Part shown: positions 16,728 through 46,385 of the stretch, piece after piece
Layout: every line of letters starts with the position of its first letter
How positions within the stretch are numbered: the first letter of the stretch is position 1
From: a virus
Length of the DNA stretch: 47,365 nt
IMG/VR virus record: IMGVR_UViG_3300020578_003511
Coordinates: 1-47,365 of that record
Reading direction: 5' to 3' (one strand)
Position numbers and translations under genes: made by a program
The notes under the pieces: model-generated
What the model was told of the DNA's origin: nothing
The model's input: the letters and a program-made list of their open reading frames with translations, nothing else
The model's database searches: none

Positions 16728-17864
16728 ATGGCTGCAACAACTAGAAAAGGTGTTTGGGACTTACAACAGGTTAGAGATCAGTATCTTGCTGGGGAATGGG
16801 AACAACAGTTTCAATTATTTGCATGGGGGATTAATAATTTTGGTCAATTAGGGCAAAACAATATAACTTATTATTCGTCACCAATACAAATTCCAGGAAC
16901 ACAGTGGAGTTCAGTTTCTGGATCTTATGCTGCATCAGCATTTAAAACTGATGGAACATTATGGGTATGGGGACGAAATGATTATGGTGGATTAGGTCTA
17001 AATGATACAGTAAGACGTTCATCACCTGTTCAAATTCCAGGAACACAGTGGAGTACTTCTAATGGTGGTGTTTACAATATGTACGCAACCAAAACTGATG
17101 GAACACTGTGGGCATGGGGTTATAATGGACTTGGACAGTTAGGACAAAATAACAGAGTAGATTATTCATCACCAACACAAATTCCAGGAACACAGTGGAA
17201 TAAAATACAAGTAGGGACTTATACTGATTATAGTGTTATTGCAACCAAAACTGATGGAACACTATGGATGTGGGGTGAGGGTGCTAGTGGGCGTTTAGGA
17301 CAAAATGATGTAGCAAATCGTTCATCACCAGTACAAATTCCAGGAACACAATGGAATAATATTGGGAAGGGACAATCTTTTACGTTTGCAACCAAAACTG
17401 ATGGAACCTTGTGGATATGGGGAAATAATATTGAAGGACAACTGGGACAAAATAATCGAGCGAATTATTCGTCACCACGACAAATTCCAGGCACACAGTG
17501 GAATTTAGTAGATGGTGGAGGTCAACATTCATTAGCAACCAAAACTGATGGAACATTATGGGCATGGGGTTATAATCCTTATGGAGAACTGGGACAAAAT
17601 ACTGGTGCAAATCGTTCATCACCAGTACAAATTCCAGGGACACAGTGGGCACTTGATGCAAATTCTATTAATGGATTGTATGAGGGATGTGCTGCACGTA
17701 AAACTGATGGAACATTATGGGCATGGGGAAGAAATATTTATGGAATGATGGGACAAAATAATACAACAGATCATTCATCACCAAGACAAATTCCAGGAAC
17801 ACAATGGATTGCAGTAACTGGTAATACTTATGAAGTCATAGCAATCAAATCTCTTGTAAACTAA
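16728..17864 (+). CDS. Stand-alone RCC1-type seven-repeat beta-propeller, copy 1
   Basis: 378 aa with a 35-residue N-terminal lead (MAATTRKGVWDLQQVRDQYL) and then seven repeats of about 48-52 aa. Each repeat has TLWxWG, a GQLGQNN-like turn, and SSPxQIPGTQW. Seven repeats close one RCC1 propeller. A good AGGAG site (16717-16721) precedes the ATG. No stalk or Ig-like domain is present, unlike the six downstream copies, so it must attach through the short N-terminal helix or a partner protein. RCC1 propellers serve as binding platforms; receptor binding by a fibre tip is the likely role. Confidence 0.85.
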   Translation: MAATTRKGVWDLQQVRDQYLAGEWEQQFQLFAWGINNFGQLGQNNITYYSSPIQIPGTQWSSVSGSYAASAFKTDGTLWVWGRNDYGGLGLNDTVRRSSPVQIPGTQWSTSNGGVYNMYATKTDGTLWAWGYNGLGQLGQNNRVDYSSPTQIPGTQWNKIQVGTYTDYSVIATKTDGTLWMWGEGASGRLGQNDVANRSSPVQIPGTQWNNIGKGQSFTFATKTDGTLWIWGNNIEGQLGQNNRANYSSPRQIPGTQWNLVDGGGQHSLATKTDGTLWAWGYNPYGELGQNTGANRSSPVQIPGTQWALDANSINGLYEGCAARKTDGTLWAWGRNIYGMMGQNNTTDHSSPRQIPGTQWIAVTGNTYEVIAIKSLVN

Positions 17865-17867
17865 ACT

Positions 17868-17875
17868 TATAAATA
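17868..17875 (+). promoter_or_regulatory. Perfect late promoter octamer
   Basis: TATAAATA matches the T4 late consensus at all 8 positions and lies 29 bases upstream of ATG 17897. Confidence 0.7.
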
Positions 17876-17896
17876 CTTTTAAAGTTTCACATACCG

Positions 17897-18619
17897 ATGA
17901 AAATATTCAAGTTCTTATCAGTAGATGCAAAAACTGGTATCTCAGTAGAAATTGAAAGATCACTAGAAGGACCAACACGACCAAATCTACCAGGAATTGG
18001 TGAAGTGTTCTATTTTGGTGGTTGGATGTATGCAGAGGCAGATGATACTGCCGAAGAAAATCCAGGTAATTACATCTTTGAAGTTACAGAAGCAGACTTT
18101 GAAGAAGCAATTCGTGGTGAATTTGAAGGCATCAAAACAGCAAGAATTGCAAATGCCTATGAAGAAGAAAGAGGCATTCGTGAAGCACTATTTGGTAATA
18201 AGTATCATGGATCTGCTACGATTGCTGGTGTCTATAAGTATGAGCAAGCAAAAGCACTGTTAGATGATCCAACTGCTGATGCACCTGAAATCAAAGCAGA
18301 AGCAACTGCTAGGGGTGTATCTGCTGCTGTGATTGCACAAAGAATTGTTGATAATCACGAAGCATTTAGACTGAAAGAAGCAAAACTTGCAGGTCTTCGT
18401 GGTAAGATTGTTGATCGTCTACAAGCACTGACTTTTGATGAGACTGATGCACTTGGAAGTTGGAAAGAACTAACTGAAAGAACAGAAGTCATTGGAACAC
18501 TTCCAGAAAGAGAAGGTGGTCCAGCACTAGCAAATAGACCAGAAGGCAATAATGATGTTAAAGTTGGATATTATTCACCAAGCTTAGGACTGCGCTGGGA
18601 ATGGTTGAATAAGGGTTGA
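17897..18619 (+). CDS. Probable tail-fibre-associated protein of unknown function
   Basis: 240 aa. The N-terminal 70 residues look beta-rich (FLSVDAKTGISVEIERSLEG); the rest is helical and charged, including an AEATARGVSAAVIAQRIVDN segment followed by RLKEAKLAGLRGKIVDRLQAL. That helical theme recurs in accessory proteins near phage tail fibre genes, and position between two RCC1 genes fits a fibre assembly or attachment factor. No specific family could be confirmed. It has its own perfect late promoter and is followed after 4 nt by the second RCC1 gene. Confidence 0.5.
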   Translation: MKIFKFLSVDAKTGISVEIERSLEGPTRPNLPGIGEVFYFGGWMYAEADDTAEENPGNYIFEVTEADFEEAIRGEFEGIKTARIANAYEEERGIREALFGNKYHGSATIAGVYKYEQAKALLDDPTADAPEIKAEATARGVSAAVIAQRIVDNHEAFRLKEAKLAGLRGKIVDRLQALTFDETDALGSWKELTERTEVIGTLPEREGGPALANRPEGNNDVKVGYYSPSLGLRWEWLNKG

Positions 18620-18623
18620 TGTT

Positions 18624-19757
18624 ATGATTACGTCAACGACGAGTGGTGTTTGGTTACTTGCGGATCAATATGCAAAGAATAATGCAGAAAGGTGGCGTCC
18701 TAGTGGATCTGCATTGTTTGCATGGGGATATAATGCCCAAGGACAACTAGGGCAAAATGATACAGTACCACGTTCATCACCAAGACAAATTCCAGGATCC
18801 GCATGGAATGAAGTTAATGTGGGTCAATATAACATAATTGCTACTAAAACTGATAATACTTTATGGATTTCTGGTGATAATGCTTATGGGACTTTGGGAT
18901 TAAATGATATAGTACCACGTTCATCACCGGTGCAAGTCCCAGGAACCCAATGGAATAAAGTATCTTCGGGTGCTGTAATTACAGCAGCAACTAAAACTGA
19001 TAATACTTTATGGGTATGGGGAAATAATGATGTTGGACAACTGGGATTGAACAATACAGTACTTCGTTCATCACCTACACAAATTCCAGGAACACAATGG
19101 AACCTGACTTGTGTTGGAGACCAATACATATATGCAATTAAAACCGATGGAACACTATGGGCATGGGGTAGAAATGGAAATGGTGCAATGGGGCAAAATG
19201 ATACATCCAATCGTTCCTCACCAGTACAAATTCCAGGAACACAATGGAATTCTTTAGCTGGTGGCGGAAGATATGCTGCCGGAGCATCAAAAACTGATGG
19301 AACTTTATGGATGTGGGGATTTAATAATTATGGTTCCTTAGGACTGAACGACCGAGTAGCACGTTCATCACCAGTGCAAGTTCCGGGAACTCAATGGTCA
19401 TTTAACTCCGTTTCTAGTATAGCATATTCTTATCAAACAGCATTAACAAAAACTGATGGAACATTATGGGTATGGGGACATAATGGTGAAGGTCAATTAG
19501 GACAGAATGATCTAGTAACACGTTCATCACCAGTTCAAGTTCCAGGAACACAGTGGTCTAAATCTAGTTGTGGTGCAAGTATTACATTAGCAACCAAAAC
19601 TGATGGAACATTATGGGCATGGGCTGGATATGTCTATGGCGAAATCGCACAAAATAGTGTAGTAAGATATTCATCACCACAGCAAATTCCAGGAACACAG
19701 TGGACTAGTTTCTCCGCAGGATATTATAGTGCAGCAGCAGTCAGACCTTCTTATTAA
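18624..19757 (+). CDS. Stand-alone RCC1-type seven-repeat beta-propeller, copy 2
   Basis: 377 aa: a 30-residue lead (TTSGVWLLADQYAKNNAERW) followed by seven RCC1 blades. The lead resembles that of copy 1 (GVWDLQQVRDQYL), supporting a shared attachment element. Blade 7 is the most divergent (WAGYVYGEIAQN). Blade 2 has ISG in place of WG. Blade 1 shares a 62-nt exact tract with the stalked propeller at 34763. It begins 4 nt after the 17897 gene, so the two are probably co-expressed, and is followed by the first 2OG oxygenase gene after 6 nt. Confidence 0.85.
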   Translation: MITSTTSGVWLLADQYAKNNAERWRPSGSALFAWGYNAQGQLGQNDTVPRSSPRQIPGSAWNEVNVGQYNIIATKTDNTLWISGDNAYGTLGLNDIVPRSSPVQVPGTQWNKVSSGAVITAATKTDNTLWVWGNNDVGQLGLNNTVLRSSPTQIPGTQWNLTCVGDQYIYAIKTDGTLWAWGRNGNGAMGQNDTSNRSSPVQIPGTQWNSLAGGGRYAAGASKTDGTLWMWGFNNYGSLGLNDRVARSSPVQVPGTQWSFNSVSSIAYSYQTALTKTDGTLWVWGHNGEGQLGQNDLVTRSSPVQVPGTQWSKSSCGASITLATKTDGTLWAWAGYVYGEIAQNSVVRYSSPQQIPGTQWTSFSAGYYSAAAVRPSY

Positions 19758-19763
19758 CACTTT

Positions 19764-20351
19764 ATGAACCCTTTTGAACTTCTTATTATTCAACCAAATA
19801 TCGTTCCGCAAGAACACATTCAACAACTTCTTCAACTAACCAATCAATCAACATCAAATGCAACGATTGGTTCTGGTGAAGAAAAAGTAGAATTAGAAAC
19901 CAGACATACGTTATGGTATCCAATACCATATCCAATGTTGCAGAACTTAAATTCTGCGATTATGTCTTGTTATAAATCTTATATGGAACCAATTTATCAT
20001 TCAACGATTAAAAACATTGAACCTGCCCAATTTCTTGGCTATCCTATTGGTGGTCATTATATTGAGCATAATGATTGTGAAAATTTTGAAGGTGGGAAAT
20101 GGGTCAAAATTGCACCCAGAGATATTTCAATTCTATTTTATTTGAATGATAACTATACTGGTGGGGAACTAGAATTTACACAACTTGGTTTGACTATTAA
20201 ACCAAAAACAGGTATGATGATAGCATTTCCATCCTATAAAGAATTTGCCCATAAAGTTCATCCAGTCAAAACTGGTATGAGATATTCACTTGTAAGTTGG
20301 TTAGAGACAGAGAAAAAAGTTTATGAAACAGTACGAAGAAAAAGGTTTTGA
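19764..20351 (+). CDS. 2OG-Fe(II) oxygenase, prolyl 4-hydroxylase-like
   Basis: 195 aa. A double-stranded beta-helix oxygenase is indicated by H102-x-D104 (in HYIEHNDCEN), a strand segment SILFYLNDNYTGGELEF, distal His163 and Arg173 in HKVHPVKTGMRYSLVSW. This is the prolyl 4-hydroxylase/PLOD pattern: the two His and Asp bind Fe(II), the Arg binds 2-oxoglutarate. It would hydroxylate a peptide side chain, possibly proline, in the cytoplasm. It directly follows an RCC1 gene and overlaps the next oxygenase gene by 29 nt. The substrate is unknown; propeller prolines are a candidate. Confidence 0.85.
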   Translation: MNPFELLIIQPNIVPQEHIQQLLQLTNQSTSNATIGSGEEKVELETRHTLWYPIPYPMLQNLNSAIMSCYKSYMEPIYHSTIKNIEPAQFLGYPIGGHYIEHNDCENFEGGKWVKIAPRDISILFYLNDNYTGGELEFTQLGLTIKPKTGMMIAFPSYKEFAHKVHPVKTGMRYSLVSWLETEKKVYETVRRKRF

Positions 20352-20904
20352 AGTTAAGCAAGGATTTATTCCCCCATTTTTTGCACAATATCTGAGAAAC
20401 TATTTTGATCTTCTGAGAAAGAACGATCAAATTCCAAACAAAGGTGATGATCAGGTAGAAAAATCACTTGGGATTTATGGAGACCCTGCATTTGATATGT
20501 TGATGTTGATGTGTCTTCCAGCAGTAGAACAGGTAGTAGGAAAAAAACTTCTACCAACTTATACCTATGCACGGATTTATTTTAAGGGTGCAGGACTTCT
20601 TCCGCATTTAGATCGTGAAGAATGTGAGCATTCAGTATCCCTGTCTTTAGGTGGAGAATATAATGCGCTTTGGCCCTTATGGTTTAAGAATGAAGATGCC
20701 CAACCAGAACATGCTGCGATGGGTGAAGGTGATGCTGTAATCTATAAAGGTAATAAAGTTCATCATTGGAGAGATGAATTTGAAGGAACCACACAGTTCC
20801 AAGTCTTTATGCACTATGTTGAAGCAGAAGGAGAATATAAAAACAAACTGTTTGATACAAGACCTTACATTGGACTACCTGCTGGTACTAAAACTGAGTA
20901 TTGA
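20323..20904 (+). CDS. 2OG-Fe(II) oxygenase-like protein
   Basis: 193 aa, overlapping the upstream oxygenase gene by 29 nt. H95-x-D97 in LLPHLDREECEHSVSLSLGG, an ALWPLWF segment, and a distal His pair (147/148) in GNKVHHWRDEFEGTTQFQVF fit an Fe(II)-binding facial triad. The usual 2-oxoglutarate Arg or Lys is not obvious at its normal place, so cosubstrate binding is less certain than for the upstream protein. Similar proteins are common in marine phages and cyanobacteria. The substrate is unknown. Confidence 0.7.
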   Translation: MKQYEEKGFEVKQGFIPPFFAQYLRNYFDLLRKNDQIPNKGDDQVEKSLGIYGDPAFDMLMLMCLPAVEQVVGKKLLPTYTYARIYFKGAGLLPHLDREECEHSVSLSLGGEYNALWPLWFKNEDAQPEHAAMGEGDAVIYKGNKVHHWRDEFEGTTQFQVFMHYVEAEGEYKNKLFDTRPYIGLPAGTKTEY

Positions 20905-20906
20905 CT

Positions 20907-22196
20907 ATGATTGCACAACTGATTATTGAACTGAGTGAAAAGGGTGAACCAAAGGCAGCAAAGGAACTAGCAAAAGCATATCTTAAACACCAAGCAGATC
21001 CAGAAATTCTTAATCTGCTTGGTAAACTGCATCATGATGATAAAGAATTTGATGAAGCACTGAAATGCATGAATGCACTTCAAGAAAGTCCTGGCGTAAT
21101 CATCAATAAGGCAAAGTGTCTTTATTATCTACGCAGAGCACCAGAAGCAGAAAAACTTCTTTTGAAACTTCCAAAAGATGTAAGAGAAGATCCTTTAACG
21201 CAAATTGATCGTTCCCTGTACACGACTGCACAAGGTAAGTTTGATTTAAGTAAAAGAATTCTACAACCAATTGCTGATACAATTCCACAAGCAGCATTTA
21301 ACTACGGATGGTTTCTTCTGAATGAAGATTTCTTGAAAGGTTATGAATACATTCGTGCTGGGGCAAATCTTAAAGTCTGGGGACACGAATGGTTGCTGAA
21401 AGAAAAGTATGGTATTGATAAAGAACAACGTTGGAATGGTGAAACCGTAGATACGATCGCATATTATCTTGAAGGTGGTATGGGTGATGAAATGATCTTC
21501 ATTCGCTATGCAAATCATTTCAAGAAGTATTGCAAGACACTGAAAATCTTTTGTACCAAATCCACAAAGTCATTGTTTGAAGCATGTGGATATGAAAATG
21601 TTTATCTGCACGATGAAATTGTAAGAACCAAATGGACAAAGTTTGTTCCTGCAATGTCTGCACCTTATTTTCTTGGTCTATCTGGTCCTTGTGATGGCGT
21701 GGAATTTCCTTATCTGCAAAAGAAAGCAAATCCGATTGCAGAAATGAATGATGTTGCGAAAGGACGTAAGAAGATTTGTATTCGTTGGAAAGGCAATCCA
21801 CAGTTTGAACATGATCAATTCCGTAGTGTTCCAATTGAAAAACTTCTTGATCTTGATAAGTTTGGTCAGTTGTTTTCATTACAGATTGAAGACAGTGATC
21901 TACCAAAAAATGCACCAGTATGGGATTTAAGTCATCTAATTCATGACTGGAATGATACTTATGATATCTTTGCAGAAAGTGATTTGGTGATTACATCTTG
22001 TACTGCAACTGCTCATCTTGCAGGTGCAATGGGCACAAAAGTGATTGTCCTTCCACCATTAGTTCCTTACATTACATGGGCATCTGACGATATCAAATGG
22101 TATGGTGATAACGTCACTGTATTGAAGCAGATGGAGTATAATAATTGGGATAAAACGATTGAGAGACTTTATGAGGTGGTAGAAAATGAATATTGA
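20907..22196 (+). CDS. TPR plus GT9 (heptosyltransferase-like) glycosyltransferase
   Basis: 429 aa from ATG 20907 (a TTG two codons earlier is less likely; both overlap or abut the upstream stop). The N-terminal 150 residues are helical TPR-like repeats (AKELAKAYLKHQADPEILNLLGKLH). The C-terminal part matches the GT9 ADP-heptose:LPS heptosyltransferase style: YLEGGMGDEMIFIRYANHF (about 187), KICIRWKGNPQFEHDQFRS (about 285), and SDLVITSCTATAHLAGAMG (about 350), the usual sugar-nucleotide-binding end. It could use the ADP-heptose made by the genes at 32184-34701, either on LPS or on a protein. It overlaps the next gene by 11 nt. Confidence 0.75.
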   Translation: MIAQLIIELSEKGEPKAAKELAKAYLKHQADPEILNLLGKLHHDDKEFDEALKCMNALQESPGVIINKAKCLYYLRRAPEAEKLLLKLPKDVREDPLTQIDRSLYTTAQGKFDLSKRILQPIADTIPQAAFNYGWFLLNEDFLKGYEYIRAGANLKVWGHEWLLKEKYGIDKEQRWNGETVDTIAYYLEGGMGDEMIFIRYANHFKKYCKTLKIFCTKSTKSLFEACGYENVYLHDEIVRTKWTKFVPAMSAPYFLGLSGPCDGVEFPYLQKKANPIAEMNDVAKGRKKICIRWKGNPQFEHDQFRSVPIEKLLDLDKFGQLFSLQIEDSDLPKNAPVWDLSHLIHDWNDTYDIFAESDLVITSCTATAHLAGAMGTKVIVLPPLVPYITWASDDIKWYGDNVTVLKQMEYNNWDKTIERLYEVVENEY

Positions 22197-22791
22197 AACT
22201 TATAGTTTATTTCCAACAAACATTGTAAGAACTGACTTCAAAGGTTTTATTACACCTGAGGATCATTTCACAATGATGCAAAGTGTAGACATGTTGATTG
22301 AGAATGGTGTCTATACTGATAATGAACTTACGCCAAAGTATCAGACATCAGTAATCCTATTTCATGATGATGCACCACCAATCTGGCAGAAGTTAAAGAA
22401 AACATTCTATCAGGCATGTTCTAATTATCTTCAAGCAACACCTGGTTTTACTGGTAATCAAGATGCACTTGAATTCACTGGTTCTGGTGCATGGTGTTAT
22501 AAAGGATGGAAGGGACTTAATCAAACACAAACGAACCCATGGCATCATCATAACCCATCATTTCTTTCAGGTGTCTATTATCTAAAAGTCCCTGGTGATT
22601 GGTCTACGGGTGGTACAGAATTTCATGATCCAAGAACTGCACCAGCACAAGCAACACAAAATCAATGCATAGCACCACAGGAATATACTTGGATTATCTT
22701 TCCTGGTTGGTTATCGCATAAAAGCAATTATGTAGATACTGAGGATCCACGTTATGTAATTGCAGCAAATATGTATGTAAAGGTACGATGA
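22186..22791 (+). CDS. Putative 2OG-Fe(II) oxygenase (TIGR02466/2OG-FeII_Oxy_5-like)
   Basis: 201 aa. The N-terminus (SLFPTNIVRTDF) is the usual opening of this family. Metal ligands are suggested by H120-H122 (NPWHHHN) followed by SFLSGVYYLKVPGDWSTGG, and His178 in IIFPGWLSHKSNYVDTEDPR with Arg189 for 2-oxoglutarate. The family is widespread in marine phages and its substrates are unknown. Overlapping on both sides (11 nt upstream, ATGA downstream) places it in a tightly coupled operon with glycosyltransferases. Confidence 0.75.
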   Translation: MNIETYSLFPTNIVRTDFKGFITPEDHFTMMQSVDMLIENGVYTDNELTPKYQTSVILFHDDAPPIWQKLKKTFYQACSNYLQATPGFTGNQDALEFTGSGAWCYKGWKGLNQTQTNPWHHHNPSFLSGVYYLKVPGDWSTGGTEFHDPRTAPAQATQNQCIAPQEYTWIIFPGWLSHKSNYVDTEDPRYVIAANMYVKVR

Positions 22792-23456
22792 AAAGAGCAA
22801 TTTTTACTTTCTATAATTTTTCAATCGATCCAGAAGTAATTAGACTTCAACAAGAAGTCATTCAAAAATTCAATCACACAGCACAGTTTCTTCCACTATG
22901 TTCACAAACACGCGGGGAAGAAGTCATGCATCCACAAGCCGTTGACTATGGACTGAATGAACTATTCGTCAATCAGCAATGTGATACGGTTCTTCTGTTG
23001 GATGTTGATTGTATTCCAGTAAATCAATATGCACTGGAATATACATTTGATCAAGCAGAAAAAGGAAAGTTAGTGGGTAATGCACAAATTGGTGCTCATC
23101 TACAAAATCCAGAACACATGTATGTTGCTCCTTCTGCTTTTTGTTTAACTAGACAAATGTATGAAGACTTTGGTAGAATGACTGTGCAACCAGATCACAT
23201 CAATGCTGATACCTGTGGATATTATACAATTGAAGCAGAAAAGCGTGGACTTGAAGTAGAATTCTATATGCCCACACACTTTCAACGTCGTCCAAGAAAT
23301 ACAGTTTGGGATTTAGGTCAAGGTCGTGGTGAATTTGGTATTGGTACAACGTATTCAAATCATCTTGGTGTGAATATGTTCTATCATCTATTTGAAAGTC
23401 GTTTGAATGTCTACAATTGCCTCTTCTATGATAAATGCGATGAACTACTGAAATGA
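22788..23456 (+). CDS. Glycosyltransferase-like protein (GT-A type)
   Basis: 222 aa. An N-terminal strand is followed by VLLLDVDCIPV with D72-x-D74, the nucleotide-sugar/metal-binding DxD of GT-A enzymes. Downstream, AQIGAHLQNPEHMYVAPSAF and a conserved-looking FEFGIGTTYSNHLG-like segment (GEFGIGTTYSNHLG, about 180) complete a small soluble domain with no membrane anchor. It is coupled by ATGA on both sides. The donor and acceptor are unknown. Confidence 0.65.
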   Translation: MKRAIFTFYNFSIDPEVIRLQQEVIQKFNHTAQFLPLCSQTRGEEVMHPQAVDYGLNELFVNQQCDTVLLLDVDCIPVNQYALEYTFDQAEKGKLVGNAQIGAHLQNPEHMYVAPSAFCLTRQMYEDFGRMTVQPDHINADTCGYYTIEAEKRGLEVEFYMPTHFQRRPRNTVWDLGQGRGEFGIGTTYSNHLGVNMFYHLFESRLNVYNCLFYDKCDELLK

Positions 23457-24049
23457 CTTATACTTACCTAGATGCTTGTGTAGAAAATCCAAGAACAGTT
23501 GATCTTGGAAATGATATGTATGCAATTGAATTCTGGAAACCAGAATTCTGCAAAGAACTGATTAACATCGCAGAAAGCATTGGTGGGTTTTCTAGTGTTC
23601 CTGGTGATCCTGTTTATGGTCAAGAACTACGTATTACACAAATCAGTGACTTGTTTTATAAGAACTATTGTGAACACTGGAAACGTGTAGTATCCCCATT
23701 TCTAGATGAAAAGTTTGGTCTTCCAAGTGAACAATGGTTTACTGGTTGGAAAGTTCCATTCATCATTAAGTATTCAATGGACAGTCAACGTTCATTAAGA
23801 ATTCATGCTGATGATAGCTTGATTACTGGTACAATCAGATTGAATGATGAATACACTGGTGGTGAACTGATTTATCCACGTCAGAATTTTAGTAATAAAG
23901 ATGTACCTGTGGGAACAATGATCATTGCCCCATCCATTGTGACGCATTTGCATTATAGTAGTGAACTTCAAAGTGGTATGAAGTATTCGTTTGTATCATG
24001 GACAAAACTAAATAAGAAAGATAACGGGATTAACTTCGCAGAAGTCTAA
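23453..24049 (+). CDS. 2OG-Fe(II) oxygenase, lysyl/prolyl hydroxylase-like
   Basis: 198 aa. H118-x-D120 in SLRIHADDSLITGTIRLNDE, YTGGELIYPRQ, and distal His (165 or 167) with basic Lys177 in HLHYSSELQSGMKYSFVSW give a clear procollagen-hydroxylase-type (P4H/PLOD) pattern; the 2-oxoglutarate residue is Lys instead of the usual Arg. It shares the terminal layout SGMxYSxVSW with the 19764 protein, so the two are related. The stop codon overlaps the start of an RCC1 gene (TAATG), so the oxygenase and the propeller are translationally coupled, which makes that propeller a candidate substrate. Confidence 0.8.
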   Translation: MTYTYLDACVENPRTVDLGNDMYAIEFWKPEFCKELINIAESIGGFSSVPGDPVYGQELRITQISDLFYKNYCEHWKRVVSPFLDEKFGLPSEQWFTGWKVPFIIKYSMDSQRSLRIHADDSLITGTIRLNDEYTGGELIYPRQNFSNKDVPVGTMIIAPSIVTHLHYSSELQSGMKYSFVSWTKLNKKDNGINFAEV

Positions 24050-25164: not shown

Positions 25165-25170
25165 TAAATA
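25163..25170 (+). promoter_or_regulatory. Late promoter octamer for the second half of the modification cassette
   Basis: AATAAATA (7 of 8) overlaps the stop codon of the RCC1 gene and lies 29 bases before ATG 25192. It would drive the run of overlapping genes from 25192 to 33944. Confidence 0.5.
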
Positions 25171-25191
25171 CATCAAACAACATTCTTCATT

Positions 25192-26025
25192 ATGCAACAA
25201 CTTCATTACTGTCTGGGACTGCCCAGAACTTGCTCATCAGTGATCATGAACATCCTGAATGAGAACCCAAGATTTTTCACAACTGGTACTTGTCCATTAC
25301 CTTATCTTGTAAGTGCTTGCAGAGACATTTCCACGCAAGTCAGCGAGTTCATTGCACTAGACAAAGACGTTCTTAACGATGCATATCTAAACTTTCTGCG
25401 ACAAGGATTTCGTGGATGGTTTGAGACAATGACTGATAAACCAGTTGTTATATCCAAGTCAAGAGTATGGGCAGAATATCTAACCCATACTTTCGCACTT
25501 AATCCAAATTCAAAGTATCTGTATATTGTAAGAGATCTTAGGGACATTATTTGTTCTTTTGAGACACTACTGCATAAGTATCCCAATATCATCATTGGAG
25601 ATACCCAGATGCCCTTCCAGCACAATACATTTGAGAAGCGAATGGAATTGTACTGTACGGATGGAATGGCGAACCTAGGGCGTCCTTTACACATGCTTCC
25701 ACATGTTGTTGAAGTCGCACAAAAGCATCCAGATAACTTCTTCTTCCTGAGACACGAAGACTTCAACGAAAATCCAAGAGGAACATTCCAGCTGATTTAT
25801 CAATGGTTAGGTGAAGAATATTTTGAACATGATTTTGAAAATATTCCTAAACCTGATTACTATGAGCACGATACTGTTTATCGTTCCATGGTAACGCACA
25901 AGACAGGAACAAAACTGAAAAAGTTAGAACCACGTTGGCCAAAGATGATGACGCCTGAACAGTCACAATTGGTCATTCAAAACAACCTAACATACTATCA
26001 ACAGTTCTATCCTGAACTTGTATGA
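25192..26025 (+). CDS. Sulfotransferase
   Basis: 277 aa. The PAPS 5'-phosphosulfate loop is visible as GLPRTCSS (residues 9-16) right after the first strand, and the 3'-phosphate motif as YLYIVRDLRDIICS (110-122). A late segment (FFFLRHEDFNENPRGTFQLI) and helical C-terminus match sulfotransferase layout. It should transfer sulfate from PAPS to a hydroxyl of a sugar or protein. No signal peptide or membrane segment is seen, so it acts in the cytoplasm, suiting a nascent phage protein or a sugar precursor. It is coupled to GT25 by ATGA. Confidence 0.8.
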   Translation: MQQLHYCLGLPRTCSSVIMNILNENPRFFTTGTCPLPYLVSACRDISTQVSEFIALDKDVLNDAYLNFLRQGFRGWFETMTDKPVVISKSRVWAEYLTHTFALNPNSKYLYIVRDLRDIICSFETLLHKYPNIIIGDTQMPFQHNTFEKRMELYCTDGMANLGRPLHMLPHVVEVAQKHPDNFFFLRHEDFNENPRGTFQLIYQWLGEEYFEHDFENIPKPDYYEHDTVYRSMVTHKTGTKLKKLEPRWPKMMTPEQSQLVIQNNLTYYQQFYPELV

Positions 26026-38663: not shown

Positions 38664-40808
38664 ATGGCGATAAATTTTCCTGATAGTCCATCGTTAAATC
38701 AAATTTTCAATGATACAACATCTGGTTTTAGTTTCCAGTGGAATGGTGAAGTATGGAAAAGTTATGTAGATCCAACGATTGGTAATACAACCAAACTAGA
38801 TGATATCAGTGCTTCATTTAATGGAAGCACACAAACCTTTGCACTTACAGTTAATGGAACTGCTGCAACTGCTGATTTAGATCCAGCAAAAATTCTACTT
38901 AGCTTAGGTGGTGTAGCACAAAACCCAGTAGAAGACTATACAATCAGTGGTACAAACATTACATTTACCACTGCACCTGCGAATGGTCTTACATTTTTCG
39001 CAGTTATTTTAGAAACAGGTATATCAAAAGACTATATTTCTTCTGGTATCATTGGTCCAACAGGTCTTTCAACTGGTGGATTTTCTTGGAACACTGGTGG
39101 TGATTTATACATCAGTGGTGTTGCGACAGTTGCAAATACAGGTACAGCAACAACAGCATTATATGTTTCAGGAAATGCTAGAATTGCTGGTATTCTGACT
39201 GTTGGTTCTTCAAGTATTACGTTTGATGGTACAAATAATAGAATTACTGGAACAGGTATTACAATTAGCAGTGGTGGTATTGTAGCAAGCGCAATCACTG
39301 CGACCAGTTATTCTGGTGATGGTGCAAATCTTACTGGTGCAGGATTAGGTCCAACAAGTAACATCAACACCACAGGTATCATCACTGCATCTAAATTCTC
39401 TGGTGATGCAACATACTTAACTGATATTGGTGGTGTAATTCAAGGTATTGTTTATAATCCTACTGTTGGTGCAACTGGTATTGCAGCCACAACAAACATT
39501 GATATTACATTTAACAAACCAATCAAAGCAGGTATTGGAACGATTACATTAAGAACTGATAGTGCATCAGGATCAATTGTTGAAAGTTATGATATTACTT
39601 CAAGTAATCGTCTTACAATCAGCGGTGCGAAGTTAACAATTGACCCCACTAGCAATTTAGGTGCAGGTACAACGCACTTTGTTGTAGTTCCTGCTGGTAC
39701 AGTCAAAGACTTGTTTAATACTGGTAGCAATGCTGTAATTGATACTTATAGTTTCACGACACAATCTTTTACCCTGTTTAGTTTTGGAAGAAATCCCAAT
39801 GGACAATTAGGACAAAATGATACAGTAAGACGTTCATCACCAACACAAATTCCAGGAACACAATGGAGTTATATAAACTCTGCAAACTATCATTCATTAG
39901 CAACAAAAACTGATGGAACTTTGTGGGCATGGGGATCTAATGCTTTCGGTAAATTAGGATTGAATAATACAACATATTGCTCATCGCCGGTACAAATTCC
40001 AGGAACATCATGGAGATTTATTTCTTCTGATTATAACACCACAATAGCAACTAAAACCGATGGAACTTTATGGGCATGGGGAAATAATGGTGCCGGAGAA
40101 TTGGGACAATCTAATACATACAATCGTTCATCACCAATTCAAATTCCAGGAACACAGTGGGGAAATATATCTGCGACTGCAAGTGATACATTTGCAACTA
40201 AAACCGATGGAACATTATGGTCATGGGGATATAATAGTTATGGTCAGTTGGGACAAAATGATAGAGTAAATCGTTCATCACCAATACAAATTCCAGGAAC
40301 ACAGTGGAATAATATACAAACAGGATTCTATTCTACATTTGCAACTAAAACCGATGGAACTTTATGGGCATGGGGATATAATCATAGAGGACAACTGGGA
40401 CAAAATAATACAACATATCGTTCATCACCAGTACAAATTCCAGGAACATCGTGGAATTCTATAGGTGGTTTTCTTCAACATTTTTTAGCAACAAAAACCG
40501 ATGGAACATTATGGTCATGGGGATATAATAATGCCGGAAGATTGGGACAAAATGATACAGTATTTCGTTCATCACCAGTTCAAGTTCCAGGCACACAATG
40601 GAGTTCTATAAGTGCTGGTGGTCAACATTCACTAGCTACTAAAACTGATGGAACTTTATGGGCATGGGGTAGAAATTATTTTGGAGAACTTGGAGCAAAT
40701 ACCTCTGGTTCAGCAGCATATCGTTCATCACCAATACAAATTCCAGGAACATCTTGGAGTTCTGTTTCTGCTGGTTATCAAAGTTCATCAGCAATCAAAT
40801 CACAATAA
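38664..40808 (+). CDS. Stalked RCC1 fibre 3 (long-stalk type)
   Basis: 714 aa. The first 44 bases of the gene are identical to those of the 44229 gene (MAINFPDSPSLNQIF). A beta module (SFNGSTQTFALTVNG), shaft repeats (ATSYSGDGANLTGAG), an Ig-like module (NPTVGATGIAATTNIDITFNKP ... AGTTHFVVVPAGTVKDLF) and seven RCC1 blades from about residue 370 follow. Blade 2 shares 83 nt with blade 7 of the 34763 gene, and the blade 6-7 junction shares 85 nt with the 42541 gene. Blade 7 has an insert (ANTSGSAAYRSSP). Confidence 0.85.
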   Translation: MAINFPDSPSLNQIFNDTTSGFSFQWNGEVWKSYVDPTIGNTTKLDDISASFNGSTQTFALTVNGTAATADLDPAKILLSLGGVAQNPVEDYTISGTNITFTTAPANGLTFFAVILETGISKDYISSGIIGPTGLSTGGFSWNTGGDLYISGVATVANTGTATTALYVSGNARIAGILTVGSSSITFDGTNNRITGTGITISSGGIVASAITATSYSGDGANLTGAGLGPTSNINTTGIITASKFSGDATYLTDIGGVIQGIVYNPTVGATGIAATTNIDITFNKPIKAGIGTITLRTDSASGSIVESYDITSSNRLTISGAKLTIDPTSNLGAGTTHFVVVPAGTVKDLFNTGSNAVIDTYSFTTQSFTLFSFGRNPNGQLGQNDTVRRSSPTQIPGTQWSYINSANYHSLATKTDGTLWAWGSNAFGKLGLNNTTYCSSPVQIPGTSWRFISSDYNTTIATKTDGTLWAWGNNGAGELGQSNTYNRSSPIQIPGTQWGNISATASDTFATKTDGTLWSWGYNSYGQLGQNDRVNRSSPIQIPGTQWNNIQTGFYSTFATKTDGTLWAWGYNHRGQLGQNNTTYRSSPVQIPGTSWNSIGGFLQHFLATKTDGTLWSWGYNNAGRLGQNDTVFRSSPVQVPGTQWSSISAGGQHSLATKTDGTLWAWGRNYFGELGANTSGSAAYRSSPIQIPGTSWSSVSAGYQSSSAIKSQ

Positions 40809-40822: not shown

Positions 40823-42526
40823 ATGAGCCAGTCTAATGCACAACTTGTAGCACCAGTTGGAATATTCACTGCATCAGGTATCAATGCATCTGGTGTTGTA
40901 ACTGCTACTAGTTTTTCTGGTGATGGTTCACAATTACAAGGTGTTGGTGTAGGAACCACAGGAAGTATCAATTCATCTGGTATTGTTACTGCATCTGCTT
41001 TTTATGGTAATGGTGCTAATCTAACTGGTATTACACTGATTGGCCCAACAGATAATTATACAACAACAGGTATCATCACTGCTGGTTCTTTTTATGGTGA
41101 TGGTATTGGTATCACAAATATTGGTGGTCCTTTAAGTCCAATCATTTATTCACCTGGTATTGGTGTAACAAACATAAGTAATGATACGAATATTGTTATC
41201 ACATTCAACAAACCAATCGCAGCGGCAGCAGCAACAACAGGTATTTCAACAATTACTTTAAGAAGCGGTAGTGCATCAGGAACGATTGTTGAAAGTTATG
41301 ATATTGCGAATGTTGCTGCTGGATCTAGCGTAAGTATTAGTGGTGCTGTTCTTACAATTAATCCAACGGACTCAGTAATCAGTGCTGGAACAACTTTTTA
41401 TGTTGTTATACCTGCTGGAACATTACAAGACACAATTGATACAAGCGATAATACTGGAATTACAACTTATAGTTTTACAACTGCGGCACAGTATTTGCAG
41501 TTGTTTGGGTGGGGAAATAATCAATATGCTGAATTGGGTCTTAATGATGTAATATTACGTTCATCACCAACACAAATTCCAGGAACACAGTGGAATTCTG
41601 TAAATGGTGGTAATGAACATTCATTAGCAACAAAAACTGATGGAACCTTATGGTCATGGGGTTATAACCGTGGAACTTTAGGTATAAATGACGTTATACC
41701 ACGTTCATCACCGGTACAAGTTCCAGGCACACAATGGAGTTCTATAAGTGCTGGTAGTCATTTATTTGCAACTAAAACTGATGGAACACTGTGGACATGG
41801 GGTGGTAATTTACTTGGACAGTTAGGACAAAATAACAGAGTAGATTATTCATCACCAACACAAATTCCAGGAACACAATGGAATTTTATAAATGCTGCAC
41901 TTGGTATTTCACTAGCAACAAAAACTGATGGAACTTTATGGGTATGGGGAGGAAATGGAAATGGACAATTAGGATTAAATAATAGAATAGGTCGCTCATC
42001 ACCAACACAAATTCCAGGAACCCAATGGAATAAAATTGCTGGTTCTAATACACTTGCAGTAGCAACCAAAACTGATGGAACACTATGGGCATGGGGTCGC
42101 AATTATCAGGGACAATTAGGACAAAATAATACAACATATCGTTCATCACCAACACAAATTCCAGGAACATCATGGAATTCTGTAAGTGCTGATAGTGTTA
42201 CTACATTAGCAACCAAAACTGATGGAACTTTATGGTCATGGGGTTATAATTATCTGGGAAATCTAGGACAAAATAATACAGTACAATATTCATCACCAAG
42301 ACAAATTCCAGGAACACAATGGAATGCTATTAATTATGAAAACGGGATTAGTTTTGCAACAAAAACTGATGGAACTATGTGGGCTTGGGGTCGAAATACT
42401 TATGGACAATTGGGATTAAATAATACAATAGGTCGCTCATCACCAACACAAGTTCCAGGGACACAGTGGACATCTTCAATTTCTTCGGGCAATCATTCCT
42501 CATTTGCTATCAAAACAGTAACATAA
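40823..42526 (+). CDS. Stalked RCC1 fibre 4 (short-stalk type)
   Basis: 567 aa. Short N-terminus (MSQSNAQLVAPVG), shaft repeats (TATSFSGDGSQLQGVG, GSFYGDGIGITNIGG), an Ig-like module (SPGIGVTNISNDTNIVITFNKP, with a small AAAATTG insert) and seven RCC1 blades from about residue 226. Blade 2 is one residue shorter (GYNRGTLG). Blade 3 shares 66 nt with blade 3 of copy 1 at 16728, although the genes lie 24 kb apart. Confidence 0.85.
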   Translation: MSQSNAQLVAPVGIFTASGINASGVVTATSFSGDGSQLQGVGVGTTGSINSSGIVTASAFYGNGANLTGITLIGPTDNYTTTGIITAGSFYGDGIGITNIGGPLSPIIYSPGIGVTNISNDTNIVITFNKPIAAAAATTGISTITLRSGSASGTIVESYDIANVAAGSSVSISGAVLTINPTDSVISAGTTFYVVIPAGTLQDTIDTSDNTGITTYSFTTAAQYLQLFGWGNNQYAELGLNDVILRSSPTQIPGTQWNSVNGGNEHSLATKTDGTLWSWGYNRGTLGINDVIPRSSPVQVPGTQWSSISAGSHLFATKTDGTLWTWGGNLLGQLGQNNRVDYSSPTQIPGTQWNFINAALGISLATKTDGTLWVWGGNGNGQLGLNNRIGRSSPTQIPGTQWNKIAGSNTLAVATKTDGTLWAWGRNYQGQLGQNNTTYRSSPTQIPGTSWNSVSADSVTTLATKTDGTLWSWGYNYLGNLGQNNTVQYSSPRQIPGTQWNAINYENGISFATKTDGTMWAWGRNTYGQLGLNNTIGRSSPTQVPGTQWTSSISSGNHSSFAIKTVT

Positions 42527-42540: not shown

Positions 42541-44211
42541 ATGAGCCAGTCCAAAGCACAACTTACTAATCCATTAGGTCCTGTAAATTTAAGTGGTTTA
42601 AGTGCGACTGGGGTTGTAACTGCTACAACTTTCATTGGTAATGGTTCTGGTTTAACTGGAATTGCACTTACAGGAAACATCAATACAACAGGCATCATTA
42701 CTGCATCTGCATTTTATGGTAGCGGTGCAAATTTAAGTGGAGCAGGATTAGGACCAACAAGTAATATCAATACATCAGGTATCATCACAGCAGGAAAGTT
42801 TTATGGTGATGGAAGTTTATTAACAGATATTGGTGGAGCATTTACACCATTAACTTATAGTCCTGGTATTGGTCAAACAAATGTAGGTGTATCATCAAAC
42901 ATCACCATTACATTTAATAAACCAATTAAAGTTGGAACTGGTACAATTACTTTAAGAACTGGAAGTGCATCAGGAACGATTGTTGAAAGTTTTGATGTTA
43001 CTTCTAGTAGTAGACTTTCAATAAATGCAGGTGTTTTAACGATTAGTCCAACAAATTCACTTGCAGGGTTAACTACACATTATGTTGTGTTACCAGCAGG
43101 AACAATTAAAGATACTTATAATATTGATAGTAATACTTTAATTGATACTTATAGTTTTACCACACAGATATCTAATGTTCTCTTTGTTTGGGGGAATAAT
43201 CTTTATGGAGACCTTGGACAAAATAATACAACACAATATTCATCTCCCGTTCAAATACCAGGAACGCAATGGAGTTCATTTTCTGCCCGCCATGTTACAT
43301 TAGCAACAAAAACTGATGGAACCTTATGGTCATGGGGATATGGACAACAAGGTCAATTAGGACAAAATAATCTAACACAATATTCATCACCAGTACAAAT
43401 TCCAGGAACACAATGGAATAAAATTAATGCAGAAGGTTATATAAATTCACTAGCAACAAAAACTGACGGAACTTTGTGGGCATGGGGATATAATATTGAA
43501 GGACAACTGGGACAAAATAATCGAGCGAATTATTCGTCACCACGACAAATTCCAGGCACACAGTGGAGTTCCATAAGTTGCGGTGGTCATACATTAGCGA
43601 CCAAAACTGATGGAACCTTATGGTCATGGGGTTATAATTATGCCGGAAGATTGGGACAAAATGATACAGTAAGACGTTCATCACCAACACAAATTCCAGG
43701 CACACAATGGAGTTCTATAAGTGCTGGTGGTCAACATTCACTAGCTACTAAAACTGATGGAACTTTATGGGCATGGGGAAGTAATCATTTAGGTTACTTG
43801 GGACAAAATAATACAACATATTATTCATCACCAAGACAAATTCCAGGAACGCAGTGGAGTTCGGTTTCTGCTACTTATGGTGGAGGAAATCAGTCTGTTG
43901 CAACAAAAACTGATGGAACATTGTGGGCATGGGGTTACAATGGATATGGAACATTGGGACAAAATGATACTACAACTCGTTCATCACCAATACAAATTCC
44001 AGGAACACAATGGAATCTAATAGAAGGAGGTAATAACTTACTTCTCGCAACCAAAACTGATGGAACACTATGGATATGGGGATATGGACGTGAAGGAGCA
44101 TTAGGACAAAATACTACAATAAACCTTTCATCACCAACACAAGTTCCAGGAACACAATGGAATTTCGTGAATGCTGGTGGTACCTACATTTCAGGTGGAA
44201 TCAGATCATAA
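42541..44211 (+). CDS. Stalked RCC1 fibre 5 (short-stalk type)
   Basis: 556 aa. N-terminus MSQSKAQLTNPLG, two shaft repeats (TTFIGNGSGLTGIA, FYGDGSLLTDIGG), an Ig-like module (SPGIGQTNVGVSSNITITFNKP) and seven RCC1 blades from about residue 213. It is the most mosaic copy: blade 3 shares 78 nt with copy 1 at 16728, blades 4-5 share 85 nt with the 38664 gene, and blade 6 shares a tract with blade 1 of the 34763 gene. Confidence 0.85.
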   Translation: MSQSKAQLTNPLGPVNLSGLSATGVVTATTFIGNGSGLTGIALTGNINTTGIITASAFYGSGANLSGAGLGPTSNINTSGIITAGKFYGDGSLLTDIGGAFTPLTYSPGIGQTNVGVSSNITITFNKPIKVGTGTITLRTGSASGTIVESFDVTSSSRLSINAGVLTISPTNSLAGLTTHYVVLPAGTIKDTYNIDSNTLIDTYSFTTQISNVLFVWGNNLYGDLGQNNTTQYSSPVQIPGTQWSSFSARHVTLATKTDGTLWSWGYGQQGQLGQNNLTQYSSPVQIPGTQWNKINAEGYINSLATKTDGTLWAWGYNIEGQLGQNNRANYSSPRQIPGTQWSSISCGGHTLATKTDGTLWSWGYNYAGRLGQNDTVRRSSPTQIPGTQWSSISAGGQHSLATKTDGTLWAWGSNHLGYLGQNNTTYYSSPRQIPGTQWSSVSATYGGGNQSVATKTDGTLWAWGYNGYGTLGQNDTTTRSSPIQIPGTQWNLIEGGNNLLLATKTDGTLWIWGYGREGALGQNTTINLSSPTQVPGTQWNFVNAGGTYISGGIRS

Positions 44212-44214
44212 ATA
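44207..44214 (+). promoter_or_regulatory. Late promoter octamer overlapping the upstream stop
   Basis: CATAAATA (7 of 8) contains the upstream TAA and lies 22 bases before ATG 44229; the leader is a one-base variant of those at 36456 and 38642. Confidence 0.6.
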
Positions 44215-44228
44215 TCTAAAAAACGATA

Positions 44229-46385
44229 ATGGCGATAAATTTTCCTGATAGTCCATCGTTAAATCAAATTTTCACAGATGCTACATCTGGTTTTACCTAT
44301 CAGTGGAACGGAACTGTTTGGATCAACTATAACTATACTGCACCAGCAAAGATCTTAGAACTTGATGATATCAAAAGTTCTTTCAATGGTTCAACACAAA
44401 CCTTTGCGCTTACAGTATCAGGTTCTGCTGCTACACCAGTCAAAGCAGATCAGTTAATTATCAACATTGGTGGTATTACACAAAATCCAGGAACTGACTT
44501 TACTGTATCAGGAAGTAATATTACATTCACAACAGCACCAACAACAGGTCTTGACTTTTATGGTGTTCTGTTAGGTGGTTCAACAAGCTTATCAGCAGTA
44601 TCATCAAATACAGTAAGACCGGATTCATTTACAACTGGTGGACCAACATGGAATTCATCAGGTGATCTAAAAGTATCTGGTGTTACAACGATTGCAAACA
44701 CTGGATCTGCAAGTACAGCACTGTATGTTTCAGGAAATGCTAGGATCACTGGAATTGTAACAGTTGGATCATCAAGTATTACGATTGATGGTGCAAATAA
44801 TTCAATTCAAGTTGGAACTGGTGCAACATTAAATGCATCAGGTATTACTGTTGGTATCATTACTGGTACATTCTATGGTAGTGGTGCAGGACTTGCGAAT
44901 GTTGGTCTCGGAACACAAGGAAGTTTGAATACAACAGGTGTCATTACTGCGACAAGTTTCTATGGTGATGGTTCTGGTCTTACAAATCTTGGTGGTCCTT
45001 TACAACCACTGACGTATTCACCTAGTATTGGGCAAACAAATATTTCTGATGTACCAACAATCGTTGTTACATTCAACAAACCACTGAAAATTAATACAGG
45101 ATCAATTACAATCAGAAGTGGAAGTGCATCAGGTACAATCATTGAAAGTTTTGATGTAACATCCAGTTCTGCATTAAGTATTAATGGTGGTGCTTTGACG
45201 ATCACACCAACAGTTGCTTTAGGTGCTGGTACAACACATTTTGTTGTATTCCCTGCGGCAGCATATAAAGATACTTTTGAAAGTTCTTCAAGTGTTGGTA
45301 TTACAACTTATAGCTTTGTAACTGCGACACAGTATTTGCAGTTGTTTGCATGGGGTTCTAATTCTAACGGAACATTAGGACAAAATAATATAACAAATCG
45401 TTCGTCACCAATACAAATTCCAGGTGTTCAGTGGGCACAAATTGATAGTTACTACCACACAGCAGCAACAAAAACTGATGGTACATTGTGGGTATGGGGA
45501 TCTAATGGTAACGGTAAATTAGGATTGAATGATAGTGGAACAATAACTGCACGTTCATCACCAGTACAAATTCCAGGAACATCATGGAATTCTATTAGTC
45601 TTGGATATGCTCATTCATTAGCAACAAAAACTGATGGAACTTTATGGGCATGGGGATATAACGGATTGGGGGGATTAGGGTTAAATGATGTAGCCAATCG
45701 TTCATCACCAAGACAAATTCCAGGAACACAATGGGAAAATTTGGCTGGTGGCTTATATGAGACCCTTGCAACCAAAACTGATGGAACTTTATGGTCATGG
45801 GGTTATAATGCCCAAGGACAATTGGGACTTAATATTAATAACAATTATTTTTCATCACCAGTTCAAGTTCCAGGAACACAATGGAGTAGACCATATAGTG
45901 GATATACGTTTAGTGGAGCACTAAAAACTGATGGAACTTTATGGACATGGGGAAGAAATCAAAGGGGAAATCTAGGACAAAATAATACAGTACAATATTC
46001 ATCACCAAGACAAATACCAGGAACACAATGGAGTGCAGCTTCATTCGGTTATTATCATATTTTAGCAACAAAAACTGATAATACTTTATGGGCATGGGGC
46101 AGTGAAGGAGATGGTTCTATCGGACAAAATGATAATGTGGTTTATTCATCACCAAGACAAATCCCAGGAACCCAATGGTCATTGACCCAAAATCGTGGTG
46201 GTGGATATTTTAGTTTAGCACTTAAAACTGATGGAACTTTATGGGCAGTGGGTGGAAGAAATGGAAGTGGTCATTTAGGTCAAAACGACGATATACGTCG
46301 TTCATCACCAACACAAATTCCAGGAACACAGTGGTCTTCATCATCACAAGCATATGCAATTGGATATGCAATCAAATCAGTATAA
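44229..46385 (+). CDS. Stalked RCC1 fibre 6 (long-stalk type)
   Basis: 718 aa. N-terminus identical to the 38664 fibre for 15 residues, then YQWNGTVWINYNY, a beta module (SFNGSTQTFALTVSG), shaft repeats (TSFYGDGSGLTNLGG), an Ig-like module (SPSIGQTNISDVPTIVVTFNKP ... AGTTHFVVFPAAAYKDTF) and seven RCC1 blades from about residue 372. Blades 2 and 4 carry loop insertions (NDSGTITARSSP, NINNNYFSSP) and blade 7 reads AVGGRNGSG. It is the last of the six tandem fibres. Confidence 0.85.
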   Translation: MAINFPDSPSLNQIFTDATSGFTYQWNGTVWINYNYTAPAKILELDDIKSSFNGSTQTFALTVSGSAATPVKADQLIINIGGITQNPGTDFTVSGSNITFTTAPTTGLDFYGVLLGGSTSLSAVSSNTVRPDSFTTGGPTWNSSGDLKVSGVTTIANTGSASTALYVSGNARITGIVTVGSSSITIDGANNSIQVGTGATLNASGITVGIITGTFYGSGAGLANVGLGTQGSLNTTGVITATSFYGDGSGLTNLGGPLQPLTYSPSIGQTNISDVPTIVVTFNKPLKINTGSITIRSGSASGTIIESFDVTSSSALSINGGALTITPTVALGAGTTHFVVFPAAAYKDTFESSSSVGITTYSFVTATQYLQLFAWGSNSNGTLGQNNITNRSSPIQIPGVQWAQIDSYYHTAATKTDGTLWVWGSNGNGKLGLNDSGTITARSSPVQIPGTSWNSISLGYAHSLATKTDGTLWAWGYNGLGGLGLNDVANRSSPRQIPGTQWENLAGGLYETLATKTDGTLWSWGYNAQGQLGLNINNNYFSSPVQVPGTQWSRPYSGYTFSGALKTDGTLWTWGRNQRGNLGQNNTVQYSSPRQIPGTQWSAASFGYYHILATKTDNTLWAWGSEGDGSIGQNDNVVYSSPRQIPGTQWSLTQNRGGGYFSLALKTDGTLWAVGGRNGSGHLGQNDDIRRSSPTQIPGTQWSSSSQAYAIGYAIKSV

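Follow-up and report, generated by a model that had tools for sequence, protein, structure and literature searches.

Gene content of the cassette

The window analysed here is a virus contig of 47,365 bases (IMG/VR record IMGVR_UViG_3300020578_003511), and our subject is a gene cassette in which nine RCC1 propeller proteins are encoded together with glycosyltransferase-like proteins, 2-oxoglutarate (2OG)-Fe(II) oxygenases, a sulfotransferase, a methyltransferase and ADP-heptose genes. A search with the family PF00415 found 62 matches across the window, of which 61 exceed the curated cut-off and all fall within nine Open Reading Frames (ORFs), and PF25390 scores above its cut-off in all nine proteins. 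With a blade profile built from the window propellers and six relatives in AG-345-E08 and S-SRM01, 7 blades of about 50 residues were found in each protein (63 in total, counted on the identical loci L012 and L088), the same number that a sequence-only reading of this DNA had given for three short and six stalked propellers. The same RCC1 search matched 0 of 14 control genomes, and the RCC1 abundance in the window is far above chance.

All nine genes are on the plus strand. The short propellers a (16728–17864), b (18624–19757) and c (24049–25164) have 371–378 residues. In the stalked fibres d (34763–36460), e (36478–38646), f (38664–40808), g (40823–42526), h (42541–44211) and i (44229–46385), a Big_5 Ig-like domain lies ahead of the propeller. 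The only match to the short N-terminal stretch of propeller a comes from AG-345-E08. Upstream on the plus strand is a gene of a structural protein (15810–16715), whose counterpart in the nearest relative bears an RCC1 head.

Over residues 1–300, the fibre encoded at 5044 shares up to 78% identity with cyanophage fibres (460 phage records, every one with a name in Synechococcus, Cyanophage, Prochlorococcus or Marine), and genes of a baseplate hub and a tail lysozyme lie upstream of the cassette, as seen within the window's own population. Thus, the cassette sits in the fibre/tail region of a T4-like cyanophage. A tRNA-Leu (taa) gene is located amid the fibre genes at 4083–4157, in a region where the listed ORFs leave gaps of 550 and 569 bases.

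From 17897 to 33944, genes are packed on the plus strand, either overlapping or separated by at most 27 bases. Six proteins are glycosyltransferase-like, as the sequence-only reading had listed, and a Pfam glycosyltransferase match exists only for one of them, the GT25 protein at 26022–26681. The enzyme tied most strictly to RCC1 is a predicted TPR and GT9-fold glycosyltransferase (20901–22196). Two GT-A-like proteins with a DxD motif were assigned from sequence, one a core member of the cassette (22788–23456) and the other at 28522–29148. Pfam gives no match for a second GT9-like transferase (29133–30206); the copy of this protein in L012 is hit by a profile of the 20901 family with E 3.3e-47. 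Conservation among the core enzymes is highest for a predicted GT-A-fold protein (30797–31429), which is 41–48% identical in distant cassettes among the matches listed.

Five 2OG-Fe(II) oxygenases score above Pfam cut-offs: A (19764–20351; PF13640, HxD102...H), C (22186–22791), D (26672–27208) and E (27917–28525), all three with PF13759, and F (31426–32187; PF13640), whose family also occurs without RCC1. Two more proteins show the HxD...H pattern and have no Pfam family above cut-off, namely the 2OG-oxygenase-like protein B (20323–20904; HxD95...H) and a P4H-like protein (23453–24049), whose gene overlaps propeller c by one base, a coupling already noted from the sequence. The DUF6445 protein at 30190–30807, with HFD and a later H, is a weaker case and a possible 2OG oxygenase, so the earlier estimate of "about eight" oxygenases was fair. 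The PHROGs label "ferrochelatase" for protein B is perhaps wrong, and the HxD...H pattern perhaps indicates a 2OG-oxygenase-like family.

The remaining plus-strand enzyme genes encode the sulfotransferase (25192–26025; PF13469/PF00685), the methyltransferase (27189–27929; PF13578), an HldE-like adenylyltransferase domain (32184–32582), an HldE-like sugar kinase domain (32533–33288), a HAD-like phosphatase (33263–33601) and a cupin (33579–33944), and they are followed on the minus strand by an HldD-like ADP-heptose epimerase (33922–34701). The sulfotransferase, methyltransferase and ADP-heptose genes are present as described before, with the matches to the three Hld models lying below the curated cut-offs. 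HldE is split into two genes, in which the adenylyltransferase half lies ahead of the kinase half, and L095 has its HldD-like gene in plus-strand orientation. The protein encoded between propellers a and b (17897–18619, plus strand) possibly serves fibre assembly; its positional counterparts match DUF4376 in two other populations, in one of them just under the cut-off. Averaged over 19 residues, hydropathy stays below 1.6 in every cassette enzyme, and therefore none looks membrane-bound.

In the 32-nt gap ahead of 17897, the octamer TATAAATA (17868–17875, plus strand) matches what we take to be the T4-type late-promoter consensus. It occurs once in the window, while 4.0 matches are expected by chance, and 3 of 23 relatives (AG-345-E08, L092 and L126) also have it in the gap that follows their first RCC1 gene, though the gaps examined do not all correspond to the one at 17868. 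The consensus match is a weak hint of a late promoter of the enzyme genes.

Linkage of propellers and enzymes across phages

The cassette was compared over 171 loci, which form 73 populations, each a single-linkage group of loci with at least 1.5 kb in common at 93% DNA identity. A locus is a stretch reaching at most 10 kb to each side, and the absence of a gene often means "outside that stretch". Loci were retrieved with short peptide patterns as seeds, so divergent relatives are missed, and genes in relatives were labelled by blastp against the window's proteins.

The co-occurrence of RCC1 fibres with the enzymes had been proposed as a check. For the loci fetched with the TPR-transferase 20901 it is complete: all 49 loci and all 24 populations contain RCC1, the window's own accounting for 5 loci and 1 population. 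This linkage holds at enzyme identities down to 24% among the matches listed. Loci fetched with the sulfotransferase contain RCC1 in 39 of 43 cases (22 of 24 populations). As for the four without a full RCC1 gene, L179 begins inside the sulfotransferase, L171 has a cut RCC1 gene ahead of it, and L147 and L148 have other genes there. RCC1 stands directly ahead of the sulfotransferase in 30 of 34 populations, and the gene ahead of the TPR-transferase is RCC1 in 20 of 32 populations, oxygenase B in 8, a cut RCC1 in 2 and another gene in 2. Starting from RCC1 itself (10 populations), GT9 was detected by profile in 6, including the window's, and by Pfam in L033; L029 and L032 stop at the RCC1 gene, and the population of L021–L023 has no GT9. 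Moreover, in 50,697 phage records the TPR-transferase was found in only 4, representing three phages (S-SRM01, BUCT-ZZ01 and AG-345-E08), and these three also give the strongest RCC1 matches. The RCC1 fibre of BUCT-ZZ01 (L010:6131–8233) is annotated as a BNR repeat domain protein. The link between propellers and enzymes is no accident of one contig, and the neighbourhood recurs in freshwater and seawater phages.

The oxygenases give a mixed result in the same check. Among loci fetched with oxygenase F, RCC1 is found in 15 of 54 (8 of 33 populations), so this family is not specific to RCC1 loci. Counted by population, 6 contain both RCC1 and GT9 (including the window's), 2 RCC1 only, none GT9 only and 25 neither (Fisher p 2.5e-5). 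The contig of L052 (159 kb), which has a relative of oxygenase F, contains 19 RCC1 matches elsewhere, and two other contigs searched whole contain none. Relatives of oxygenase F below about 62% identity (L049–L087) have no RCC1 in their stretches and several lie beside epimerase-like or HldE-like genes, which is a second genomic context of this family, apart from RCC1. Relatives of oxygenases A–E at 40% identity or above all occur in RCC1-bearing populations (8 of 8, 8 of 8, 9 of 9, 9 of 9 and 11 of 11, respectively), counts that are weak given that the loci behind them are enriched for RCC1.

The P4H-like gene 23453 exists in only 2 of 73 populations (2 of the 11 closest), and its place is taken by another gene in the nearest relative and in AG-345-E08. 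After the TPR-transferase, the core transferase 22788 rather than a 2OG gene follows in 9 of 35 populations. In three such loci, Pfam detected no 2OG oxygenase among the scanned unlabelled ORFs (10 of 12 in L150, 3 of 5 in L108 and 6 of 10 in L103), and a 2OG5-like ORF with 23% identity lies further downstream on the contig of L103 (L158). The sequence-only reading had proposed that the propellers are hydroxylated and then glycosylated or sulfated, in the manner of collagen. From the above, the enzymes are tied to the propellers and not merely near them, and this part of the proposal is supported, but the hydroxylate-first, collagen-like order is not: since none of the oxygenases accompanies the propellers constantly and only 2 populations have the P4H-like gene, the collagen analogy fails as a general description.

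Gene fusions and joint absence

In several relatives, RCC1 adjoins a single fused enzyme gene. In L028 the RCC1 gene is followed by one gene that joins a sulfotransferase to the TPR-GT9 transferase, and the same fusion adjoins RCC1 in L024 and L026, which makes three populations. In L033 RCC1 lies beside a GT8-GT9 fusion, and in BUCT-ZZ01 beside a single transferase gene, a GT9 with a weak C-terminal match to a methyltransferase (E 0.007). GT9 is the common part of the forms beside RCC1, and the companion domain varies. Fused domains often act on one product, and the GT9 companions presumably do so as well, the product presumably being a glycan.

A joint absence was observed in one population (L048, L095 and L096; two contigs). 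The three short propellers, gene 17897, the sulfotransferase, oxygenases A–E and the DUF6445 gene are absent together. Packed end to end in these contigs are the genes of the TPR-transferase, of four further transferase-like proteins, of oxygenase F, of heptose synthesis and of stalked RCC1 proteins. This state may be either a loss or the older state.

Predicted transferase folds and possible donor sugar

A structural model of 20901 (27 sequences; predicted local distance difference test, pLDDT, 89.5; predicted template modelling score, pTM, 0.85) contains a TPR array and then a GT-B domain. The first Foldseek matches are SPINDLY and O-GlcNAc transferase (OGT). For residues from about 162 to 431, however, the best structural alignments are with GT9 proteins, namely 3tov (Z 16.3), WaaF (15.5), TibC (15.3; root-mean-square deviation 3.1 over 240 residues) and WaaC (15.1). 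The catalytic part thus scores Z 15–16 with GT9 and Z 10–11 with OGT/SPINDLY, and in the model 20901 is a TPR protein with a GT9 (heptosyltransferase) fold. Aspartate 196 of this protein is invariant. Its sequence profile against solved structures gave mainly TPR chains, with no transferase among the matches listed, and a genome scan for cellular relatives of the TPR-transferase gave one weak match at 25%. The model of 30797 has a GT-A fold (pLDDT 87.1) with the best Z of 13.3 to heparosan synthase and many GT-A families close behind, so the predicted fold is transferase-like and does not define a reaction.

ADP-heptose-like genes lie in the same gene run as 20901, which suggests a donor for the window's lineage. 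Protein heptosyltransferases are known, as TibC glycosylates autotransporter proteins (PMC4358343). According to a passage of PMC4515613, heptose is lacking in cyanobacterial lipopolysaccharide (LPS), for example in Synechococcus WH8102 and CC9311, although one species named there does have it. If heptose is made, LPS would therefore be an unlikely acceptor.

Signs of blade exchange among the propeller genes

We compared five blades from each of the nine genes at the DNA level, with 1,076 blades from other populations on offer. The best match of a blade is another gene of the same genome in 39 of 45 cases. Best pairs are often off-register, the exact tracts reach up to 85 bases, and several exact tracts of 53–78 bases link short and stalked genes which are 17–26 kb apart. 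These are signs that blades have been exchanged among the nine genes. Whole-gene duplication was considered as a source of the own-genome similarity and is less likely, because many best pairs are off-register.

In the nearest relative, the enzymes are 52–92% identical where a counterpart was found, the propeller proteins are 44–63% identical, and the stalked propellers have no clear counterpart. In 29 blades of 49 residues, variation falls at positions 8, 11, 13, 14, 16, 22–25, 29 and 37–47, and positions 1–7 and most of 26–36 are nearly fixed. Such a pattern would be expected of recombining binding heads.

Five near-identical contigs differ from the window at 1–6 positions (compared within 10901–47365 at most). 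Six variant positions are located in RCC1 genes d, f and g, two of them within 15 bases of one contig's end, and RCC1 genes make up 41% of the DNA compared. At three variant sites, one allele gives a match of 32–43 bases to a paralogue; gene conversion would explain this, and so would mis-assembly in repeats. With regard to a diversity-generating retroelement, no reverse transcriptase was detected among the 38 window proteins, of 43, that were scanned with Pfam, and template repeats were not searched for.

Probable function of the cassette

The gene content, the linkage, the fusions and the joint absence lead us to infer that the enzymes most likely decorate the propellers by glycosylating them and capping the sugar, with a probability of about 0.6. 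In this process, the RCC1 propellers would be the receptor-binding heads of a T4-like cyanophage tail. The TPR-GT9 transferase 20901 would grip a propeller by its TPR part and add the first sugar, the GT-A-type transferases 22788 and 30797 (in the window also 26022 and 28522) would lengthen it, and the sulfotransferase and methyltransferase would cap it. As an optional addition, the oxygenases may hydroxylate either the protein or the glycan, the ADP-heptose genes would plausibly supply the donor in the window's lineage, and blade exchange among the nine genes would vary the binding face. The benefit might lie in receptor binding or in shielding.

Several points weigh against this interpretation. 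No modified residue has been observed anywhere, and a single receptor-masking strategy shared by enzymes and fibres would produce linkage and fusion as well. Propellers were also found apart from the enzymes, which in part is the counter-evidence that the sequence-only reading had named. The population of L021–L023 encodes a propeller of 50% identity, and its stretches, which extend 3.2–7.6 kb downstream, contain no GT9; in addition, 5 of 6 regions from unrelated RCC1-bearing records, in which many genes are hypothetical, have no such enzyme annotated within 8 kb. A propeller can therefore exist without any enzyme. The sixth region lies amid polysaccharide genes (L185, Aphanizomenon phage Yong-DA); it resembles a bacterial polysaccharide locus, and the record may not be a phage. 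Relatives of the sulfotransferase were found in 10 phage records, and an RCC1 propeller was matched in only 3 of them; the 49% identical sulfotransferase of AG-345-E15 comes without RCC1 on a record that is a 16.8-kb fragment.

The same holds for points on the enzymes and their sites. The GT9 family PF01075 does not match 20901 or 29133 at E 0.1, and none of the 27 members of A6 matches it at E 0.01, while the RCC1-adjacent fusion in L033 does match it (E 4.5e-11). ADP-heptose genes are unmatched in the stretches of many distant cassettes among the matches listed; thus heptose need not be the general donor, and other donors may serve there. A serine/threonine-proline motif occurs about once per blade in the window propellers (7 per protein, 8 in one) and only once in total over six RCC1 proteins from five enzyme-free regions. 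It was not used as a candidate modified site, for over 46 populations it is found 911 times in 1160 blades, less than once per blade, and it is usual in bacterial RCC1 repeats.

The main rival is receptor masking, in which the enzymes would alter the host surface glycan bound by the RCC1 heads, so that infected cells and debris stop capturing phage (superinfection exclusion), and heads and enzymes would travel together since both concern the same receptor. Masking would explain why the linkage is so strict and why heads and enzymes have spread in parallel, and there are precedents: glycosyltransferases and rfaE of pelagimyophages, often in a host-recognition cluster, are read as masking in PMC7029224, and a passage of PMC7824862 assigns capsule decoration or a secondary metabolite to a cyanophage cluster that encodes 2OG enzymes, cupin-like proteins, HAD phosphatases and methyltransferases. 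However, the cassette shows no recognisable membrane-bound transferase, flippase or polymerase, the reported lack of heptose in cyanobacterial LPS (the same passage of PMC4515613) does not favour a surface target, and the enzyme and propeller genes are packed so tightly along one strand that neighbours overlap or almost abut. The joint absence of short propellers and sulfotransferase, with stalked propellers and the other core transferases kept, is seen in one population and fits a pairing of enzyme and substrate better, and we consider masking unlikely. Hitch-hiking of fibre and surface-glycan genes that merely share one hypervariable island is very improbable. The locus does lie in the baseplate/fibre region, where cyanophages and pelagimyophages gather variable genes according to PMC7029224, but mere proximity agrees poorly with the fusions, the joint absence and a gene order kept at transferase identities down to 24% (among the matches listed), and only 4 phage records match the transferase versus 460 that match the neighbouring fibre.

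Decoration of the propellers could also be narrower in scope, with only the glycosyltransferases, the sulfotransferase and the methyltransferase acting on the fibres, while the oxygenases and heptose genes are separate genes of host metabolism or surface in the same variable island. This is a restricted form of the favoured reading, the confidences of the two overlap, and taken for itself it is possible though doubtful. It would agree with the wide occurrence of 2OG oxygenases in cyanophages (14 of 16 genomes in PMC3037559), with the presence of RCC1 in only a minority of oxygenase F populations, and with cassettes that have no recognised 2OG gene. It would leave aside the six oxygenase-like genes that are absent jointly with the short propellers and the sulfotransferase in one population, and the RCC1-bearing setting of all close relatives of oxygenases A–E, a weak point in view of the enrichment of those loci.

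Going beyond the favoured reading, we tentatively propose, at a little short of even odds, a dedicated and widespread phage system in which TPR-GT9-based glycosylation, sulfation and methylation of the phage's own propellers are combined with continual blade exchange among nine or more heads, diversifying both the protein face and the sugar coat. If true, it would give a function to glycosyltransferases, sulfotransferases and oxygenases of aquatic phages, which are usually classed with the auxiliary metabolic genes or with LPS genes, and RCC1 propellers, now annotated as "chromosome condensation", would become host-recognition heads. The proposal is testable, as S-SRM01, with its three-propeller cassette, is a cultured phage, and BUCT-ZZ01 has a single transferase gene beside its RCC1 fibre.

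Comparison with known systems

The sequence-only reading knew of no described phage system of this composition. This holds in part: among the matches listed in the open-access literature there is no description of an RCC1-GT9-sulfotransferase cassette, but an isolate already carries the three-propeller version. S-SRM01 (NC_070963; PMC8557907), a cultured freshwater Synechococcus phage, has three RCC1 proteins in the same order as the window, running RCC1, a 214-residue protein, RCC1, the TPR protein, a 2OG oxygenase, relatives of 22788 and 30797, RCC1 and the sulfotransferase. Unlike in the window, neither a stalked RCC1 nor an ADP-heptose gene was matched in a 31-kb stretch of S-SRM01, and full-text finds in its paper gave no RCC1, oxygenase, hydroxylase or sulfotransferase. 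Marine virus AG-345-E08 (MH319737), an unannotated record from a seawater single cell, has almost all of the cassette with the gene order preserved, including three short propellers at equivalent positions, and its enzymes are mostly 50–74% identical to the window's, with one at 40%. In contrast to the window, the P4H-like gene, the methyltransferase and the second GT9 are unmatched in 30.0 of its 35.1 kb.

According to a passage of PMC7247149, the phage phAPEC6 has eleven RCC1-like proteins, for which the authors suggest a role in DNA organisation, and the passage gives no link to enzymes. The host recognition cluster of pelagimyophages and cyanomyophages (PMC7029224) is likewise a variable fibre island with glycosyltransferases and with rfaE among LPS-related genes. 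It differs from the cassette in that full-text finds gave no RCC1, sulfotransferase or "oxygenase", with one 2OGFeDO protein mentioned, and the cluster is read as changing host LPS. Related ideas are thus in print for other parts, namely RCC1 multiplicity, fibre-island transferases and cyanophage 2OG oxygenases (portions of PMC7247149, PMC7029224 and PMC3037559).

As for the transferase, OGT and SPINDLY (GT41) share with 20901 the TPR array and a GT-B transferase, but the catalytic part of 20901 scores higher with GT9. The TibC/BAHT autotransporter heptosyltransferases (PMC4358343) are like 20901 in the predicted GT9 fold and in a repeat-rich surface protein as acceptor, which is only suggested here. 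Compared with TibC, 20901 has a TPR array ahead of the catalytic part, and the predicted acceptor would be a propeller instead of a beta-helix.

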